This document shows, piece after piece, positions 6,927 to 27,586 of a stretch of DNA of 41,880 nt. Origin of the DNA: a virus; the IMG/VR virus record IMGVR_UViG_3300042451_000633, positions 1-41,880 of that record; one strand, given 5' to 3'. The position numbers and the translations under genes are program-made. The first letter of the stretch is position 1. Every line of letters starts with the position of its first letter. The notes under the pieces were generated by a model, which did not search any database, was not told the origin of the DNA, and worked only from the letters and a program-made list of their open reading frames with translations.

Positions 6927-6931
6927 ATGTA

Positions 6932-6940
6932 TGATAAAAT
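6932..6940 (+). promoter_or_regulatory. Extended -10 promoter giving a likely leaderless chaperone mRNA
   Basis: TGA-TAAAAT (one mismatch to TATAAT) lies just after the tail-tube terminator. Transcription would start near 6947, two bases before ATG 6949, so the message would be essentially leaderless. No ribosome site is visible before that ATG. Confidence 0.5.
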
Positions 6941-6948
6941 TGAAGTAT

Positions 6949-7653
6949 ATGGCTACAAAAATATACAACAATAAAATAATTAGACTTATTGACGGTACAG
7001 AAATTGAGGCTATGCCCTTAAAGATAAAGTACCTTCGTGAGTTTATGGATGCTTTTCAGTTAGTTCGTAATGCTCAAGATGACGATGATGCAATTGGGTT
7101 ATTGGCAGAATGTGCAAGAATAGCAATGAAACAATACTGCCCATCTATATCTAGGAGTACCGAAGACCTTGAAGATAACCTGGACATGCCAAATATATAT
7201 GAGGTTTTAGATGTTGCTGGCGGCATAAAGATAAACAGTAAATCAAAAGAAACCGTAAAGGATCAAGCATCAGATAGCGGTATTACCTGGGATACACTTG
7301 ATCTTGCTAAGTTGGAGTCAGAGGTTTTTTTGCTGGGTATATGGAAAGATTATTATGAACTAGAAACATCTCTTTCTATGCCAGAACTACTAGCAACCAT
7401 AGAAAGCAAAAGAGAATTAGACTATGAAGAAAAGAAATTTTTAGCAGCAATTCAAGGAGTTGACCTTGAGGGAGAACAAGATAGAGGACAAAAGGAATGG
7501 GAAAATATGAAGGCTAGAGTATTTAGCCAAGGTGCAACTTCTGATGGTAATGACATACTTTCTTTCCAAGGTCCTAAAGCAGCAAGTGCAGGGTTTGGCA
7601 TTAACATGGGTCTTGACTATGAAGACGTTAGAGACCCTTCCGTTATGCTATAA
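6949..7653 (+). CDS. Tail assembly chaperone, long form (G+T in one frame)
   Basis: 234 aa. Residues 1-95 are clearly paralogous to the next gene: both start MATK, then LIDGTxIE, PLKI, LRxFM, and later Q-Y-P and a DLP/DMP-xxYxxV-A-GI motif. A ~135-residue extension follows, with LDLAKLESEVFLLGIWKDYY and LLATIESKRELDYEEKKFLA, resembling the T domain of tail-assembly chaperones that recruits the tape measure. In most siphophages the long form is made by ribosomal frameshifting; here it is a continuous frame. An ATG at 6931 lies in the promoter and is not aligned with the paralogue, so 6949 is chosen. Confidence 0.72.
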   Translation: MATKIYNNKIIRLIDGTEIEAMPLKIKYLREFMDAFQLVRNAQDDDDAIGLLAECARIAMKQYCPSISRSTEDLEDNLDMPNIYEVLDVAGGIKINSKSKETVKDQASDSGITWDTLDLAKLESEVFLLGIWKDYYELETSLSMPELLATIESKRELDYEEKKFLAAIQGVDLEGEQDRGQKEWENMKARVFSQGATSDGNDILSFQGPKAASAGFGINMGLDYEDVRDPSVML

Positions 7654-7654
7654 T
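7646..7654 (+). promoter_or_regulatory. Extended -10 promoter over a stop codon
   Basis: TGC-TATAAT; its TAA is also the stop codon of the long chaperone gene. Transcription would begin near 7661, leaving a ~20-nt leader with AGGAGG before ATG 7681. Confidence 0.55.
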
Positions 7655-7680
7655 TGACTAAGCCTATATAGGAGGAACAA

Positions 7681-8001
7681 ATGGCAACAAAAGTACACGA
7701 GGGGAACGAACTTACTCTGATTGATGGGACAAAGATTGAGGTTAGACCTCTTAAGATTTCTTTGCTCCGTCCGTTCATGAAGAAGTTTGAAGGAGTAGCA
7801 GCAGTAGCAGATAATAATGAAAAGTCAATGACTCTTCTTGTTGAGTGTGTTCAAATTGCTATGCAGCAGTATAAGCCAGAATTGGCAAAAGACTTGGAAG
7901 CACTTGAAGAAATTCTTGACCTTCCTACAGTCTACAAGATTGTTGAAGCAGCATCAGGTATTGAACTTGGTTCTGTGGCAAACACTCTTGCATTTGAATA
8001 A
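7681..8001 (+). CDS. Tail assembly chaperone, short form (G-like)
   Basis: 106 aa with AGGAGG before ATG. It aligns end to end with residues 1-97 of the upstream gene and lacks the T extension, so it corresponds to the short (gpG-like) product that coats the tape measure during tail assembly. The gene stops 22 nt before the tape measure start, leaving no room for a frameshifted extension. The strong ribosome site and own promoter would yield more short than long form, which is the ratio normally set by frameshift efficiency. Confidence 0.72.
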   Translation: MATKVHEGNELTLIDGTKIEVRPLKISLLRPFMKKFEGVAAVADNNEKSMTLLVECVQIAMQQYKPELAKDLEALEEILDLPTVYKIVEAASGIELGSVANTLAFE

Positions 8002-8023: not shown

Positions 8024-11000
8024 ATGGCTGATGTAAATGCTAATATTGGCGTAAATATTGATACGTCTGCAGCATTGGCCCAACTTAAAGGCCTACAACG
8101 TCAGATTTCGCAGTTTCATACCTCAATCGCTAAATCAAGCGAAACAGCAGCACTTGCACAAAGGGATCTGCAGAGAAACTTTCTTAATGGCGTAAATGCT
8201 ATTGGATCTTTCTCTGCAGAACTCCGCAGTGTAAAAACAACTTCAGAGTCTTTTACTAATTCTCTTGAAAAGAACAAGTTCTCAATGCGAGAATACTTCC
8301 GATATGCGGGAGCATCTACAAAAACATTTGGTAAGTTATTTAAGTCAGAGTATGACACAATTGGCAAGGTAGCAGAAGATCGGGTAAAGAAACTTCAAAC
8401 CCAATACATTAAGATGGGCAGAGATGCCTCTGGAGCAATGAAGGCTATTGCTATCATTCCTAATGAACTAGATATGGGCAACTTTGCAACACAGACACAA
8501 TTGGCTGCACAAAAGCAAGCGCTGTTTAATCAGTTAATGAAGCAAGGCTCAACTAACCTTTTAAACTTTGGTAAGAATACACAGTGGGCTGGTCGCCAAC
8601 TTATGGTTGGTTTTACCCTGCCACTTATGGCTGCTGGTTCTGCAGCTTCACAAGCTTTTATGAAAATGGAAGCACAAGCACTTAAATTTAAAAAGGTATA
8701 TGGAGATTTATTTACTCCACAAGGAGAAACAAAGCAAGCCCTAGCGGACATACAGGCCCTGGGAAGAGAGTTTACTAAATACGGCATAGCGGTTTCAGAT
8801 ACAGTTGGCTTAGCCGCAGATGCCGCTGCAGCAGGTTTTCAAGGGGTAGACCTACAGCGTCAAACAACAGAAGCAACAAGGCTTTCCGTCCTTGGTCAAC
8901 TTGATAATCAGAAGGCTCTAGAAACTACTATTTCTTTGCAGAATGCTTTTGGTATTTCTAGCGCAGAACTTGCAAACAACATTGACTTTCTTAACGCAGT
9001 AGAAAACCAAACTGTACTATCTCTTGATGACGTAACAACTGCCATTCCAAAGGTTGCTCCAGTAATAAAGCAATTGGGTGGAGACGTAAAAGATTTAGCA
9101 TTCTTCTTAACAGCAATGAAAGAAGGAGGAGTAAATGCATCAGAAGGCGCTAACGCTCTAAAGTCTGGTCTTGCATCATTAATTAATCCAAGCACTAGAG
9201 CAAGAGGAATGCTCAAAGGTTTGGGTATAGATATTAATAGTATTGTAAATAACAATAAGGGAGATCTAAAGGCTACAGTAGTTGGATTTGCTCAAGCACT
9301 TGATACGCTTGCACCTCTTGAAAGAGCACGAGCAATTGAACAAATGTTTGGTAAGTTCCAGTTTGCTCGTTTGTCTGCTTTGTTCCAAAACGTTACTAAA
9401 GATGGAACCCAGGCATCTAGAGTGCTTACTTTAGCAGGATCTTCAGTACAAGAACTTGCAGCGCTATCTGATAAAGAATTAGGAATGACTGCAGAATCTG
9501 CAATGAATAAGTTTAAAAAATCTGTTGAAGATTTAAAGTTTGCACTTGTTCCAGTTGGAGAAGCATTCTTAAAGGCTGTCACCCCTGTCATTGAATTTAT
9601 ATCTGGAATAGCACAAAAATTTGCGAACTTGTCTGAGGGAACTAAAAAAGCAATAACAATTATGGTTACAGTAGTTGGTGGCCTTGGTCCAGTATTACTT
9701 ATGACATTTGGTCTGCTTGCCAACGGCGTTGCTAATATAATTAAATTATTTTTAACGCTTCGTAGTGGATATCAAAACTTAACAGGCCAGTCAAAAAATC
9801 TTGGTGAACAAACCCAGTATATGACAAGTGAGCAGTTAGATGCTGCTGCTGCAGCACACTCACTTAATCAATCACATGCAAGACTTACTCAGCAGTTTAC
9901 AGCAGAAACAGAAGCACTAAAAAAACTTATAGTTGAATATCGTAATGCCGCTGCTGCAGGTGCAGGATTTGCTACCCGTAATCCTGGAATGATGAATCCA
10001 CCAAGAAGAAAAATGGTAGATGGAGGAATACTTTCTGGCCCAGGAACTGGAAGATCAGACTCTATTCCAATCATGGCTTCAAATGGTGAAGCAATTATTT
10101 CAGCTAAAAATGTAGAAAAATATCCAGAGTTAACAGCAGGACTTGTTGCTGGAAATATTCCTGGATTTAAAAATGGAAGACTGCCAATATTTGCAGAAAA
10201 TGCAATTAGATTCCAAAACCCTACACAAAATATGTCACAGCAGGCGGGACAAACAAATCTTGCTTCAGTGTTATCAGTTTTATCTGCAAGAGTTGGAGAA
10301 TCAAGAGGAATAGCTCCAACACAAAACGCTGTAATTTCTGGTAAATTTGACCCTATTACAGAAGAATATACCTCTGTTACTCAAAAATTTGTTGACAATG
10401 TAAACTTAGAATATGACACAACATTTAAAGATATAAAAGACACCAATGAAAGATTTTCTCAGTCTTGGACAAAAGCAGGAAAAGCTGTAGAAAAAGAAGT
10501 TAACGGAATAGCATCTGATGCAGAAAGAGGCGCAGTAAGAAAAGTATTTGGACTAGATCCAGATGTTTATGGAACAATTCCTACTGAACCACGAAAAGCT
10601 GGAGGAACAACTCCAGAGCGTGGAAGAAAAGGCGCTTTTAAATCTAAATTATTTGGAACTAGGTCATATACACAAATAAGACCAGCAATGAAAAATATTT
10701 ATGAAAGAATTACCAAGACTCCAGGCTCTGCAAAAGATCTACAGCTTGGTCACGTATATAAGCCACAAATGACTGATATCGCTACACTACAGGCCAATCC
10801 GATGGCATCAGGATCTGTTGCAAAGGCTGCAAAGGTTATGAATGGCCAAGCACAAGAAATTGCAGATGGAGCAATTAAGTCTACTGCTAAAGCAGCAGGT
10901 ACAGCATCTCCTTCTAAAAAGACAATTCCTATCGGTGAAGATATTGCCCGTGGTCTTGAAGTTGGAATGAAAAAGCGTAGAAAAAATGTTAAAACACAAG

Positions 11001-14000
11001 CAGAGCAATTAAGTTCAACAGCAGTAGATGGCACCAGAGCGGGAGCAAGAAGAGCAGCAAGAAGAGCAGCATCAAGACCACAAGGCCCAGCACCAATTGG
11101 TCCTATAATTCCTCCAGGTACAAAAGAATTATCAATAATAGCCAGACCAAAAGAACAAAAGCCTCCAGCAGCAGAAAAGCCCAGTGGCCGTATGGCGAAG
11201 GTTGGGGGCCTTGGTACAGGAGTTGGCCTATTAGGTGCTAACATGGCTCTAAGTGCCCTTCCAGACTTTGCTGGCAAGGGAATTATCCAGTCCACTATGA
11301 CTGGCGCTAATATGGGTATGCTATTTGGTCCATGGGGGATTGCTGCTGGTGCAGCAATAGGATTAGTTACATCTGCATTTGTTACTCTTATTGCAAAACA
11401 AAAAGAACACGAAGCAACCGTAAGAGCAACCTTTACTGCAAGCACTGAAATAGTTAAAATGTTTGGTGATGCTGTTTTGGATACCAGCATAAAAATAACA
11501 AATATCACTAATAGCTCAACAGGTCTTGGGCAGTCTCTTGGTGGACTTACTCCAGAAATTCAAGCAATGGTTGATGCAATTAAAGCATTACCAGAAGACA
11601 ATCCGTTGGCTAAGTTTGTTAAAAATATATCTTCAAGTAATTCTGACCTACAAAGTGTTACAGGGTCAATTAGGTCACAGGTAACTGCATTAATTTCAAC
11701 TGGAGGACTAGATCCAAAAAATGCAGAAAAAACTGTTCTGGCTTTATTAAGCGCTGCAAACAGAACAAGAGATTTTGGTGCTGTGTGGAGTGCTATATCT
11801 AAAGATGTTGTTGATGCCCAAACTGCAACTACAGTAGGACTAAATAAGTTAAATTCTATGGTTGATAAAACTTCAGATGTATGGGCTGAATATATAGACG
11901 GTACTGAAAAAGTTGAAAAAACATATAAAGCTATGACACCGCTACAAAGAGCGCTTGCAGATCAGTTATCAAGTATATTTGCTATAACTAGTAATGGGTC
12001 TTTATCTTTTGAGCAAATGAAACAAAGAATAGATGGTCTTAATGCTTCAACAGTAAGTGCAGAAGTTGGTGTTATAGCCCTTACTGCTGCTATTAATAAT
12101 AGTGGAAATTCCGATGCAATAGCAAGAATTAACAAGATTAAAGAAATGTATAAGGCAACAGGAATTCAGGCAGAACTTACTGCTGGACAAATATTATTGG
12201 CAAATGCAGTAATGCAATTTGCAACTCCTGGAGATGTTTCCGAGTATGCAAAGAAAAAAGATAATAATCTTTCAAAAGTACCATCCAACCTAACAGGTCT
12301 GGGAGCAACTTATTTTGATAAAGTTTTAGAATATGCAAATTCTCCTGAGTTTAAAAAGAAATATAATGATCTTCAAAAAGCAATTGCTAGAGCTTCAGGA
12401 ACAATTACTGGAGAAGAAACAGGAGTAAAAGGAACAGATATTCTTACTAAGCAATCAAAACTTGTCATTGCTAATCTACAAAAAGAACTTGATGCTTTAA
12501 AATCTAAAAGAGATGTTATTAATGAAACAAACGATTTACTTAAAAGACAATATGATCATCAACAAAAATTAATGCAATTACAGAAAGATGCAACTCAGGC
12601 AAAAATGTCTGGAGATTACATTGGCGCTGCTATTATAGAGCAGCAAAAACTATTTCAAGTATCAGAATTTAATAGAGAAACAGACGCTGATAAGCTTAAT
12701 AAAGCAATAACAAAATTAGAAAATGTAATATCTGCAATGACTTCAAACATTAAAGTTACTAATGCCAAGACAGCGCTAGATGCAGCAAAAAAGAAGTTAG
12801 CAGGAGGCGGACTTATTAAGGGTCCAGGAACTGGAACCTCTGATTCTATCCTTGGAATGGTTGCTCCTGGCTTTGCGGATGGTGGAATGCCGATAAGAGT
12901 TTCTAATGGTGAATATATAATTAAAGCGGACACCGTTCAAAAATATGGAATTAATTTTATGGATAATTTAAATGCACAAAAATTTGCAGGCGGAGGACAA
13001 GTAAAGCCTATTGATTGGCAAGTAATGTCTGATACTCCTACGGAAATGTCTTATACCCCACCACCTAAAATAATTCCAAAGCCAAAAAAGAAACAGCCTA
13101 TGAAGGACACCTTTGATGGACAACCAGATATGTGGCGTGGGTATCCATATTATGGTGATGATATGGGTATTCCTCATAGTCCATATAACTTCCTTGATTG
13201 GTTTAAAAAGATTAGGCCAAAATATGGAACATGGAAAAAGTCAGAAACTTTTAATGCTGCAAATGGTGGAATTGTAAAAAATGGTTTAATGCAAAAGTGG
13301 GCTAGATCATTAACTGGAAACCCTCTTTCAGAAATGATGGGTACAGCAGCACTACTTAGAAAAATTTCTGGAACTGGCAAAAAAGGAGATGCTCTTTCAG
13401 CAGCAATGCTGCCAGCAAGTTTTGCGGGAATGGGAATCGGATCAAAGATTGCAAATTCTGGCGGACTAATGAAATCTTTGTTTGCACTTCCCAACAAAAT
13501 TAATCAAATGAAAAATCAAGCAAAAGTTAACTCAATGATAAAGGGTGGAATGTGGCATGGCTCACAGCCACAGGGATTCCGTGGAGAAGAATATTTACAA
13601 GGAACAAATATCTTAGAGGGTGCAGAATCATATGATTCATTCTATGGTATGGGATTCTTTGGAACATCATCTAAATCAGAGGCAGACCTTTATGCATCGG
13701 GATATAACTCTTTAAATAACTGGGGAGAATCATCTGGCTCTATGAACCAAATTGTAGGATCCCCAAAGGGTAAGTATGTAGATTTTACTAGAGGAACAAA
13801 TTCTCTTAAGTGGCAAGATTATTCATTGGCCAAAGCTTTGGGTGTTAAAAAGAATGGCTATATAGGATCTTACATGAAAGAAAATCTAGGAGATCTTATG
13901 TCAGCCGAAGGCATGACAGGCGCTATAATGAATAGAATTAATGCTGGAAAAGTTCCTGGAGATATAGCGGATGCAAAGTGGCTATCATGGAATAACCCTG

Positions 14001-14299
14001 CTGGAGTAATAACAAAAGAAAAATTTGCAAATGGCGGAATGGTTGGAAATCAGTACAGCATTCCTTCCTACAATACTGGAATAGATTATGTACCTGCTGA
14101 CACCCTTGCAATGATTCACAAGGGTGAACGTGTATTAACAGCAGAAGACAATAAGAAATATTCTCAGGGAACAACCATTAATAATAATATAGTTATTAAC
14201 GGAACTGACCTAAATAAAAAAGAAATTGCAGACGAAGTTATGGTAAGATTAGATACAGTACAAAAAAGAAACAACAAGAGCAATAAGGTAGGAATATGA
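8024..14299 (+). CDS. Tape measure protein with ART-like C-terminal insertion
   Basis: 2091 aa with GAGGTGAT before ATG. Residues about 210-420 match the phage tail tape measure core (helical; ALKFKKVYGDLFTPQGETKQ, then AADAAAAGFQGVDLQ and LANNIDFLNAVENQTVLS). Hydrophobic segments lie near 545-580 and 1065-1130, as expected for a protein that helps DNA cross the membrane. Three copies of a Gly-rich module (GPGTGxSDSI ... NGExII) occur near residues 666, 1596 and 2002. Residues about 1843-2000 are an apparent ADP-ribosyltransferase-like domain: WHGS at the start, then YGMGFFGTSSKSEADLYASG. At ~0.15 nm per residue (known rule) the tail could be about 300 nm, less any folded insertions. The tape measure call is firm; the enzyme domain is tentative. 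Confidence 0.9.
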   Translation: MADVNANIGVNIDTSAALAQLKGLQRQISQFHTSIAKSSETAALAQRDLQRNFLNGVNAIGSFSAELRSVKTTSESFTNSLEKNKFSMREYFRYAGASTKTFGKLFKSEYDTIGKVAEDRVKKLQTQYIKMGRDASGAMKAIAIIPNELDMGNFATQTQLAAQKQALFNQLMKQGSTNLLNFGKNTQWAGRQLMVGFTLPLMAAGSAASQAFMKMEAQALKFKKVYGDLFTPQGETKQALADIQALGREFTKYGIAVSDTVGLAADAAAAGFQGVDLQRQTTEATRLSVLGQLDNQKALETTISLQNAFGISSAELANNIDFLNAVENQTVLSLDDVTTAIPKVAPVIKQLGGDVKDLAFFLTAMKEGGVNASEGANALKSGLASLINPSTRARGMLKGLGIDINSIVNNNKGDLKATVVGFAQALDTLAPLERARAIEQMFGKFQFARLSALFQNVTKDGTQASRVLTLAGSSVQELAALSDKELGMTAESAMNKFKKSVEDLKFALVPVGEAFLKAVTPVIEFISGIAQKFANLSEGTKKAITIMVTVVGGLGPVLLMTFGLLANGVANIIKLFLTLRSGYQNLTGQSKNLGEQTQYMTSEQLDAAAAAHSLNQSHARLTQQFTAETEALKKLIVEYRNAAAAGAGFATRNPGMMNPPRRKMVDGGILSGPGTGRSDSIPIMASNGEAIISAKNVEKYPELTAGLVAGNIPGFKNGRLPIFAENAIRFQNPTQNMSQQAGQTNLASVLSVLSARVGESRGIAPTQNAVISGKFDPITEEYTSVTQKFVDNVNLEYDTTFKDIKDTNERFSQSWTKAGKAVEKEVNGIASDAERGAVRKVFGLDPDVYGTIPTEPRKAGGTTPERGRKGAFKSKLFGTRSYTQIRPAMKNIYERITKTPGSAKDLQLGHVYKPQMTDIATLQANPMASGSVAKAAKVMNGQAQEIADGAIKSTAKAAGTASPSKKTIPIGEDIARGLEVGMKKRRKNVKTQAEQLSSTAVDGTRAGARRAARRAASRPQGPAPIGPIIPPGTKELSIIARPKEQKPPAAEKPSGRMAKVGGLGTGVGLLGANMALSALPDFAGKGIIQSTMTGANMGMLFGPWGIAAGAAIGLVTSAFVTLIAKQKEHEATVRATFTASTEIVKMFGDAVLDTSIKITNITNSSTGLGQSLGGLTPEIQAMVDAIKALPEDNPLAKFVKNISSSNSDLQSVTGSIRSQVTALISTGGLDPKNAEKTVLALLSAANRTRDFGAVWSAISKDVVDAQTATTVGLNKLNSMVDKTSDVWAEYIDGTEKVEKTYKAMTPLQRALADQLSSIFAITSNGSLSFEQMKQRIDGLNASTVSAEVGVIALTAAINNSGNSDAIARINKIKEMYKATGIQAELTAGQILLANAVMQFATPGDVSEYAKKKDNNLSKVPSNLTGLGATYFDKVLEYANSPEFKKKYNDLQKAIARASGTITGEETGVKGTDILTKQSKLVIANLQKELDALKSKRDVINETNDLLKRQYDHQQKLMQLQKDATQAKMSGDYIGAAIIEQQKLFQVSEFNRETDADKLNKAITKLENVISAMTSNIKVTNAKTALDAAKKKLAGGGLIKGPGTGTSDSILGMVAPGFADGGMPIRVSNGEYIIKADTVQKYGINFMDNLNAQKFAGGGQVKPIDWQVMSDTPTEMSYTPPPKIIPKPKKKQPMKDTFDGQPDMWRGYPYYGDDMGIPHSPYNFLDWFKKIRPKYGTWKKSETFNAANGGIVKNGLMQKWARSLTGNPLSEMMGTAALLRKISGTGKKGDALSAAMLPASFAGMGIGSKIANSGGLMKSLFALPNKINQMKNQAKVNSMIKGGMWHGSQPQGFRGEEYLQGTNILEGAESYDSFYGMGFFGTSSKSEADLYASGYNSLNNWGESSGSMNQIVGSPKGKYVDFTRGTNSLKWQDYSLAKALGVKKNGYIGSYMKENLGDLMSAEGMTGAIMNRINAGKVPGDIADAKWLSWNNPAGVITKEKFANGGMVGNQYSIPSYNTGIDYVPADTLAMIHKGERVLTAEDNKKYSQGTTINNNIVINGTDLNKKEIADEVMVRLDTVQKRNNKSNKVGI

Positions 14300-25856: not shown

Positions 25857-26866
25857 TATTTGAACTATATAATCCATCTGGGCTTTTTAATCAAGTTTCT
25901 AGTTTGGAAAATGCTATTGGACTATCCTATTATTTTAAAAAAGATTTAATTATCCATAATGTTCTTAATCCAAAAAACCCACACTTTGATGATAAATCAA
26001 TTGGAATTTATTCTTCTAATAAATGGTTTAACAATAGATCCTTTGTAGATGATTCAAATAATCCTAAAATTACAGATTTATTAGATTTCTCTCCATACTC
26101 CAAAATAGATTTTATAAATGATAAATTAAATATAGAAGATGCCCAAAACTATAGAGGATATTTTATTAATTGCTCAGAAGATATATCAAATGAAAAATAT
26201 TTTTCTCAAGGTAGAAATAAAATGGAAAATTCAATCAACCTAACCTGCACAATAGGGTGGTATTCAACATACTTTATGAATAGAACACAGGATATAGATT
26301 TTGGAATTAATTCTGTAAAATTTAAAAAAGAGTACTATGAATTAGCAGAACAAATAGCAAAATCAATAGGAGATTTTTCTGGAGCACACATTAGGTTAAC
26401 AGATAATCAATTTGACTATCCACTAAAAAATCAAATACATAGTGGCATAGAGATGCTTGATCAGGCAACAAATTTAGTTATAGCCACAGATCATCCATCT
26501 AATGAGGTTGTAAAAGAATTAAAAGGAATTATTCTAGAAGAATACATATCTCAAAATTTTTATAAAGATTTTTTACAATTTAAATTTACAGATGAAGTTT
26601 CTTTTGGTCTTTTATGTAATCTAGTTATGCATTATTCAAAAGATTTTATTGGAAGCCAAGGAAGCACTTTTAGCGGTTATATACAAAGAAATATAAAGAG
26701 TGATATAAAACTTTTTGGAGAAACCAAGTATGTTCAAGATGGTCCATATAGTTGGAATGGATATATTTTCCCAACACTACATAAAAATCCAAGAGATATG
26801 AACCCCAATGATATTCAATGGTGGAGAGAGTGGAAAGAGTCTAGATTATTCCCAGAACTTGTCTAG
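25826..26866 (+). CDS. O-fucosyltransferase-like glycosyltransferase
   Basis: 346 aa; ATG 25826 lies inside the end of the epimerase gene with AAAGGA 9 nt upstream, so the two are coupled. The N-terminus (NPSGLFNQVSSLENAIGLSY) is the donor-site loop of GDP-fucose-dependent transferases. HIRLTD (188-193) fits the HxRxxD motif, and SKDFIGSQGSTFSGYI (271-286) fits the conserved C-terminal motif of the O-FucT superfamily. It should transfer a sugar from a GDP-sugar; the upstream epimerase suggests GDP-L-galactose or a close relative. The acceptor is unknown: fibre hydroxyproline/Thr, another virion protein or a host glycan. It ends tail to tail with the minus-strand gene, overlapping by 21 bp. 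Confidence 0.68.
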   Translation: MDSANFKNSIIFELYNPSGLFNQVSSLENAIGLSYYFKKDLIIHNVLNPKNPHFDDKSIGIYSSNKWFNNRSFVDDSNNPKITDLLDFSPYSKIDFINDKLNIEDAQNYRGYFINCSEDISNEKYFSQGRNKMENSINLTCTIGWYSTYFMNRTQDIDFGINSVKFKKEYYELAEQIAKSIGDFSGAHIRLTDNQFDYPLKNQIHSGIEMLDQATNLVIATDHPSNEVVKELKGIILEEYISQNFYKDFLQFKFTDEVSFGLLCNLVMHYSKDFIGSQGSTFSGYIQRNIKSDIKLFGETKYVQDGPYSWNGYIFPTLHKNPRDMNPNDIQWWREWKESRLFPELV

Positions 26867-27586
26867 TGTTCCAGCATTATCATTAAAACCCACTGGAAAT
26901 CCTGGTAGTTGGTGTTTGGACCAAAAGGCTGTATGAACATATCTAGTACCATTTGTTATTTCTTTAATTCCATGAGGATTAAAAATATTCCCACTAAAAA
27001 TTACCAGCATTCCAGGCTTAGGTTTAATTTGAAAATTATCATGATATGGAAAAAATAATTCCCCTCCATCAAAATCCTCATTCATATATAGCATACTGGT
27101 ATAATTTTTTGTAGTGCAATGCCGCCTATAAAGAGATTCTTCATCTTCTGTAAAAAATGAGGAGTCGTAATCTTGAGGCAGTTTAGATCTATCAAAATCT
27201 GGATCAATATAATCTATATGTGGCCCTTGGTGAAATGGAGGATACCACCTAATTGCTTCCCAGCTTTCTAATTGAAAAGAGTTTTCAGCAATATTAAAAA
27301 AATCAGATACTTCATTTTTTGCAGATCTCATTATAGGATATATCTGTTTAAATAATTCTGCATGCTGTTTAGATGAATAAAGAGAGTTAAACTCTACTTT
27401 TCTATTGTCCCATTGCTTAGATACAAGCTCATAGTCTTTACCATCTGGAAATGCTTGGGGCTGGGCATTATTAAAAGACCAAAGATTTTGATTAGTAACA
27501 TAGTTAATAAACCAATCACAAGTTTCTTTGGGTACAAAATCTTCAATAATTCTTAGGTTTGGGCTTGTATAGTCTTTTATTTTCAT
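26846..27586 (-). CDS. Third Fe(II)/2-oxoglutarate dioxygenase, P4H-like
   Basis: 246 aa and the only minus-strand gene in the window. GPHIDYID gives H123 and D125; NPHGIKEITNGTRY gives H205 and R215 with the 10-residue spacing of prolyl hydroxylases; GGELFFPYHDNFQIKPKPGM is the family's middle motif. The N-terminus FVPKETCDWFINYV is a normal start for this family. Its own promoter (27593-27601) predicts a leaderless mRNA beginning at the ATG. The opposite orientation suggests separate acquisition or different timing from the other two dioxygenases. Likely chemistry is protein side-chain hydroxylation; the substrate is unknown. Confidence 0.82.
   Translation of the reverse strand: MKIKDYTSPNLRIIEDFVPKETCDWFINYVTNQNLWSFNNAQPQAFPDGKDYELVSKQWDNRKVEFNSLYSSKQHAELFKQIYPIMRSAKNEVSDFFNIAENSFQLESWEAIRWYPPFHQGPHIDYIDPDFDRSKLPQDYDSSFFTEDEESLYRRHCTTKNYTSMLYMNEDFDGGELFFPYHDNFQIKPKPGMLVIFSGNIFNPHGIKEITNGTRYVHTAFWSKHQLPGFPVGFNDNAGTLDKFWE

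Follow-up and report, generated by a model that had tools for sequence, protein, structure and literature searches.

Does the tape measure protein of this virus carry, near its C-terminal end, an ADP-ribosyltransferase (ART) domain that could act on the host as the DNA enters? The window, which is the whole stretch of 41,880 bases analysed here, comes from a virus record and has a G+C content of 36.6%. Its tape measure protein gene (8024..14299, +) encodes 2,091 residues; the core of the product matches PF10145 (PhageMin_Tail) in Pfam at E=2e-25 and phrog_10030 in PHROGs at E=2e-102, and shares 35-37% identity with tape measures of Streptomyces phages. Since the nearest tape measures among isolated phages belong mostly to Streptomyces and Gordonia phages, and given the 36.6% G+C, we infer that the host is an uncultured low-GC actinobacterium. 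Two ORFs directly upstream of the gene (window 6931-8001) occupy the customary site of the tail assembly chaperones. Elsewhere in the window, the C-terminal part of a 246-residue ORF (26846-27586, -) matches PHROGs families named 2OG-Fe(II) oxygenase, endonuclease and ferrochelatase.

The original prediction had placed an ART-like domain of the polyvalent-protein type, starting with WHGS and containing FYGMGFFGTSSKSEADLYASG, between Gly-rich modules of the tape measure, and its reading frame, coordinates, motif and flanks are all as claimed. A first Gly-rich SDSI...NGE module lies behind the conserved core (10019..10180, +, end approximate). The second, GGLIKGPGTGTSDSI...SNGEYIIKAD...LNAQKFAGGG (12803..12997, +), starts at residue 1594 and forms the upstream edge of the cassette described below; the solved tape measure 8zdo_S (gp16, 1,699 residues) contains the same kind of module. 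A conserved helix, KINQMKNQAKVNSMIKGGM (13496..13552, +), seen in the alignments and helical in the model, immediately precedes the ART-PolyVal-like domain (13553..14023, +), which was assigned on profile, family-search, structure-search and motif evidence. This domain runs from W1844 (nt 13553) to near residue 2000 (nt 14023). It contains motif 1, H1845-G1846, in strand 1 (13556..13561, +), and motif 2, YGMGFFGTSSKSEADLY (13643..13693, +), where YGMGFF begins at residue 1874 (nt 13643), F1879 stands at the ART Tyr position and Y1890 is the second Tyr. A third Gly-rich module, related to SDSI...NGE, starts at residue 2001: FANGGMV...IHKGERVLTAEDN, in short FANGGMV...HKGERV (14024..14167, +). 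The C-terminal tail, TTINNNIVINGTDLNKKEIADEV...NNKSNKVGI (14168..14296, +), resembles in pairwise alignment the tail of cassette-free sisters.

The domain sits in an optional cassette of the tape measure. The sample comprised the window and 80 loci whose tape measure cores share 71% identity or more with that of the window; 65 of the reading frames have an intact 3' end. The domain is found in 5 of these 65 3'-complete tape measures, whose cores are at least 72% identical to the window core, and among the five carriers are the window itself and a record that does not differ from it across the tested stretch. In L078, the nearest domain-free sister (88% identical core), the second Gly-rich module leads directly into the C-terminal tail, and pairwise alignment shows that about 390 residues are missing, corresponding to residues 1659-2048 of the window protein (12998..14167, +, approximate borders). 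The same region of other sisters, whose tape measures range from 1,668 to 3,614 residues, holds LysM (5e-10; L152:9514-12033) or OmpA (1e-16; L140:14555-16114) domains. Metallopeptidase-like stretches of the HExxH type (HEILH, HELIH, HETMH and HENMH) also occur in tape measure C-terminal regions (L010:8616-9188, L134, L121 and L015), that of L010 matching Pfam M13 at 0.16 at best. By eye, the proteins of some relatives contain, besides the ART-like domain, a metallopeptidase-like stretch or one of another kind.

Inspection by eye revealed further candidate domains in these proteins. A second cassette in the same tape measure of L018 (L018:6682-7119) shows an R-S-E-like ART pattern (YRGM ... 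SFSSDKG ... SELES, E-x-E), with no match in Pfam or, by tblastn, in the phage collection. Downstream of the domain, an HG...LFTTVDK..A.EYA stretch (L034:10201-10800, L014:9972-10577), with zero Pfam matches, is possibly a further ART-like cassette. Stretches reminiscent of an N-acetyltransferase are found in L013, L015, L016 and L121, and L015 also has a kinase-like stretch, SHGGNLFVNP...IDFG. Seven Microbacterium portal proteins obtained by tblastn with L034 (E about 5) were taken as chance matches after inspection of one of them.

Searching IMG/VR with the domain, or with alignments of it, identified 24 distinct contigs that carry it. In 21 of them, the same frame also encodes a tape measure core with 34-100% identity to that of the window, and in the remaining three the available DNA begins within the frame; the lowest domain identity to the window among these relatives is 38%. 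No domain relative was recovered by tblastn of the window domain against isolated phages or by pattern-based scans of the genome collection, and a scan with the most distant members gave neither a new family nor a member with the catalytic acid. Alignment A8 gathers 19 rows of the domain, 18 of them distinct. Invariant in all 19 are the His and Gly of motif 1, the second Tyr, the Glu of E(SEA)/K.EA and a final Glu, and the nicotinamide-side motif (HG, GMGF[YF].T, E, second Tyr) ranks among the best-conserved stretches. The NG86 dN/dS of the window domain is 0.09-0.19 against six relatives at 72-83% identity, and 0.21-0.41 against four more distant rows, but for the latter dS is near saturation. 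The domain evolves under purifying selection.

What fold does it adopt? The window domain alone gave nothing usable against Pfam, PHROGs and NCBIfam. When the 19 members were scanned against 24,736 Pfam models, no match of the domain or its relatives reached a curated threshold, and sub-threshold matches are leads, not proof. The best match to ART-PolyVal (PF18760) was that of L061 (E=0.0017, 19.6 bits against a curated cut-off of 31.2); DUF3990 (PF13151) weakly matched three relatives (E 0.014-0.058, below cut-off) over the first, N-terminal ~45 positions only; and an unrelated model, PG_isomerase_N (0.009), fell in the same score range. In one whole record DUF3990 detects the domain at E=5.6e-4. 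Because a Salmonella phage Mutine protein, of a kind labelled ART-PolyVal-like in the structure library, matches both Pfam models, its family (alignment A5) was taken as reference. Comparison of A8 with A5 by hhalign gave a score of 31.8 (prob 49.5) for a local match of 22 columns, above all of 100 column shuffles (at most 20.4, prob 2.7), the reversed alignment scoring 22.5; in global mode the score was 13.8, against at most 6.9 in shuffles. With the A5 HMM, the domain windows took ranks 1-5 of 5,018 phage windows, at E=0.1-0.8, and among 5,018 200-residue windows of phage loci the pattern HG...GxGF[YF]xT...A..Y was found in this domain only. The motif pattern and the profile match exceed chance.

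Structural comparison gave a similar picture. Two AlphaFold models of mediocre confidence (pLDDT 66.7 and 61.1) show the strand order expected for an ART; their input alignment was free of ART-PolyVal sequences, the addition of which would be circular. Foldseek searches of the BFVD viral models returned ART-PolyVal proteins at ranks 3, 4 and 32 with the first model and at ranks 2, 11, 12, 23 and 37 with the second, none at E<=0.001; nothing ART-like was returned from the PDB, where sequence search also yielded zero or spurious matches only. A joint L-INS-i alignment with ART-PolyVal is colinear across HGS, GxGF[YF]xT, A..YA, the strand-5 GYD/GMT and the last strands, and the spacing between the two aromatic positions of motif 2 is retained. 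These lines are weak and none is significant alone, but they converge, and on sequence and models we consider it very likely that the domain has an ART fold of the H-Y-x (PARP / ART-PolyVal) type. The original prediction is upheld in part: for the fold, by converging sub-threshold evidence, but not, as worded, for enzymatic activity.

For the ARTs of polyvalent proteins, the passages of Iyer and colleagues on these enzymes describe a His in strand 1, a Tyr in strand 2 and an Asp in strand 5 (PMC5512222). The His is present in 19/19 rows. The motif-2 Tyr position is Phe in 16 rows, including the window, and Tyr in three (L061, L063 and L064). The position of the strand-5 Asp of Mutine-type ART-PolyVal, T1965 in the window (13916..13918, +), is Thr in 16 rows, Lys in two and Asn in one; that of the Glu before the last strands of the Mutine family, K1985 (13976..13978, +), is Lys in 13, Thr in three, Leu in two and Val in one. 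Neither is acidic in any row. We do not file the domain as a member of ART-PolyVal since, the His apart, the defining features that we examined (strand-2 Tyr, strand-5 Asp or next-strand Glu, PF18760 cut-off) are lacking, although it may nonetheless work like one. Of the NAD-binding residues, the nicotinamide-side motif is thus largely intact and the catalytic acid is absent, so that the loss of such residues, named in the original prediction as a refuting outcome, has come about by half, and enzymatic activity, as first proposed, finds no support in the residues at these positions. With the customary catalytic acid gone, it is doubtful that the domain is still an enzyme. Catalysis remains conceivable because PARPs in which the Glu is replaced by I, L or Y transfer one ADP-ribose via substrate-assisted catalysis (PMC9189837), and we give activity somewhat less than an even chance. 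The invariant E44 or E157 (A8 numbering) was considered as a candidate replacement acid; the evidence speaks neither for nor against it.

The same substitutions can be read differently. A dead ART fold could have been reused as a binding or envelope-contact module, which would, for example, take hold of a host factor or of some component of the cell wall or membrane during passage of the tape measure. The non-acidic residues at both expected positions and the Phe for Tyr in most rows are in line with such a pseudo-enzyme, as are the LysM and OmpA cassettes in the same region of sisters. However, the nicotinamide-side motif would hardly rank among the best-conserved stretches if NAD binding had been lost, and the strong purifying selection is compatible with either reading. 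We regard a pseudo-enzyme as unlikely, though as a serious contender. Less probable still, and in our view quite improbable, is that the fold is not that of an ART at all but perhaps a structural module specific to tape measures, which resembles the Gly-aromatic motif by chance. The lack of a significant match to curated families or solved structures and the shortness of the local hhalign match would agree with this; against it, independent methods meet at ART-PolyVal/DUF3990, among them structure searches, which depend little on sequence, the profile score also exceeds its shuffles in global mode, and the motif-2 aromatic spacing is kept. Finally, tail length is set by tape measure length, and the wide length range of the sisters could suggest a mere filler tuning it, but a filler would not retain invariant H, Y and E residues and a globular pattern at the low dN/dS seen with the closer relatives, nor would some sister cassettes be recognisable domains, so that we give this reading hardly any credence.

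The preferred reading is an ART-related effector cassette. The domain looks like a worn relative of ADP-ribosyltransferases and probably enters the host cell together with the DNA. Slightly more probable than its negation, in our estimate, is the fuller proposal of an optional effector-type cassette with a divergent, ART-PolyVal/DUF3990-related fold, which would be released with the siphophage tape measure at ejection and would act on a host target. In mycobacteriophage Douge, the baseplate lumen holds a trimer of tape measure C-termini and the tube measures about 35 A across; tomograms showed a channel-like structure that was attributed to released tape measures (PMC13033339). The length given there for the Douge tape measure equals the 1,699 residues of 8zdo_S (PMC13033339). 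By analogy with both, three copies of the domain would lie near the tail tip, directly above the C-terminal stretch plugging the hub. Folded copies would be too large to pack side by side in a ~35 A tube, and the domain would be at least partly unfolded. The tape measure would exit the tail at genome ejection, with the domain among the first parts out, and the domain would then refold inside or beyond the envelope and act on a host target at once. The likeliest action would be a substrate-assisted, NAD-dependent mono-ADP-ribosylation as in PARPs of the H-Y-phi type; alternatively, the domain would bind NAD or the target without transfer. The final site, envelope or cytoplasm, would decide between an NAD-dependent action and an envelope role. 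NAD is scarce in the envelope. The sister cassettes that could be assigned to families, LysM and OmpA, are cell-wall binders, which could point to an envelope action of the domain.

A further-reaching proposition is that, in uncultured actinobacterial siphophages, the tape measure C-terminal slot is an interchangeable effector holder and the cassette an acid-free but active ART whose host target is modified while the DNA enters; we consider it improbable, yet not far-fetched. Should tape measures indeed carry effectors in a swappable slot, siphophages would own a separate delivery route. The C-terminal extensions of tape measures that so far lack an explanation could then be put to the test, and a link would emerge between phage tails and the effectors of contractile injection systems, which derive from tape measures.

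Phage heads (T4 Alt) and polyvalent proteins are known sources of injected ARTs. A limited check of the literature on tape measures together with ADP-ribosyltransferases or polyvalent proteins found no ART-bearing tape measure; a survey of viral NAD and ADP-ribose functions puts the share of siphoviruses with ARTs at only 3%, and its main text does not use the word 'tape' (PMC9503650). Freshwater phages carry VIP2-type ARTs (PMC6802176), and the MuF-VIP2-like fusions of Microbacterium phages likewise place an ART on an actinophage virion protein, but there it is of VIP2 type and on a head protein (PMC7302621). The mono-ART PARPs of H-Y-phi type share the histidine and the aromatic pocket without a catalytic Glu (PMC9189837), but they are eukaryotic, they gave no sequence match in the PDB search, and the third residue is here mostly Lys. 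The Sle1-type effectors of contractile injection share an actinobacterial setting, a relationship to tape measures and a variable C-terminal functional domain, whereas they belong to a bacterial contractile injection system and not to a phage, and the text of the paper does not contain 'ADP-ribosyl' (PMC13277306).

In the passages on ART-PolyVal (PF18760, Tox-ART-HYD2 clade; PMC5512222), the family shares the strand-1 HG, GxGF[YF], A..YA and the strand order, and its carrier is a large protein of the virion that is presumed to be injected, a polyvalent protein being described there as several disparate activities in one injected polypeptide. In contrast, the relatives found here all lack the strand-5 Asp, mostly have Phe for the motif-2 Tyr, and are carried by a tail tape measure, which those passages do not name as a carrier. 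The P23-45 tape measure, with its fused virion RNA polymerase, shares an enzyme-type domain in a siphophage tape measure and an early action; the polymerase is N-terminal and shown to be active, whereas the putative ART-like domain described here lies near the C-terminus (PMC10770324).
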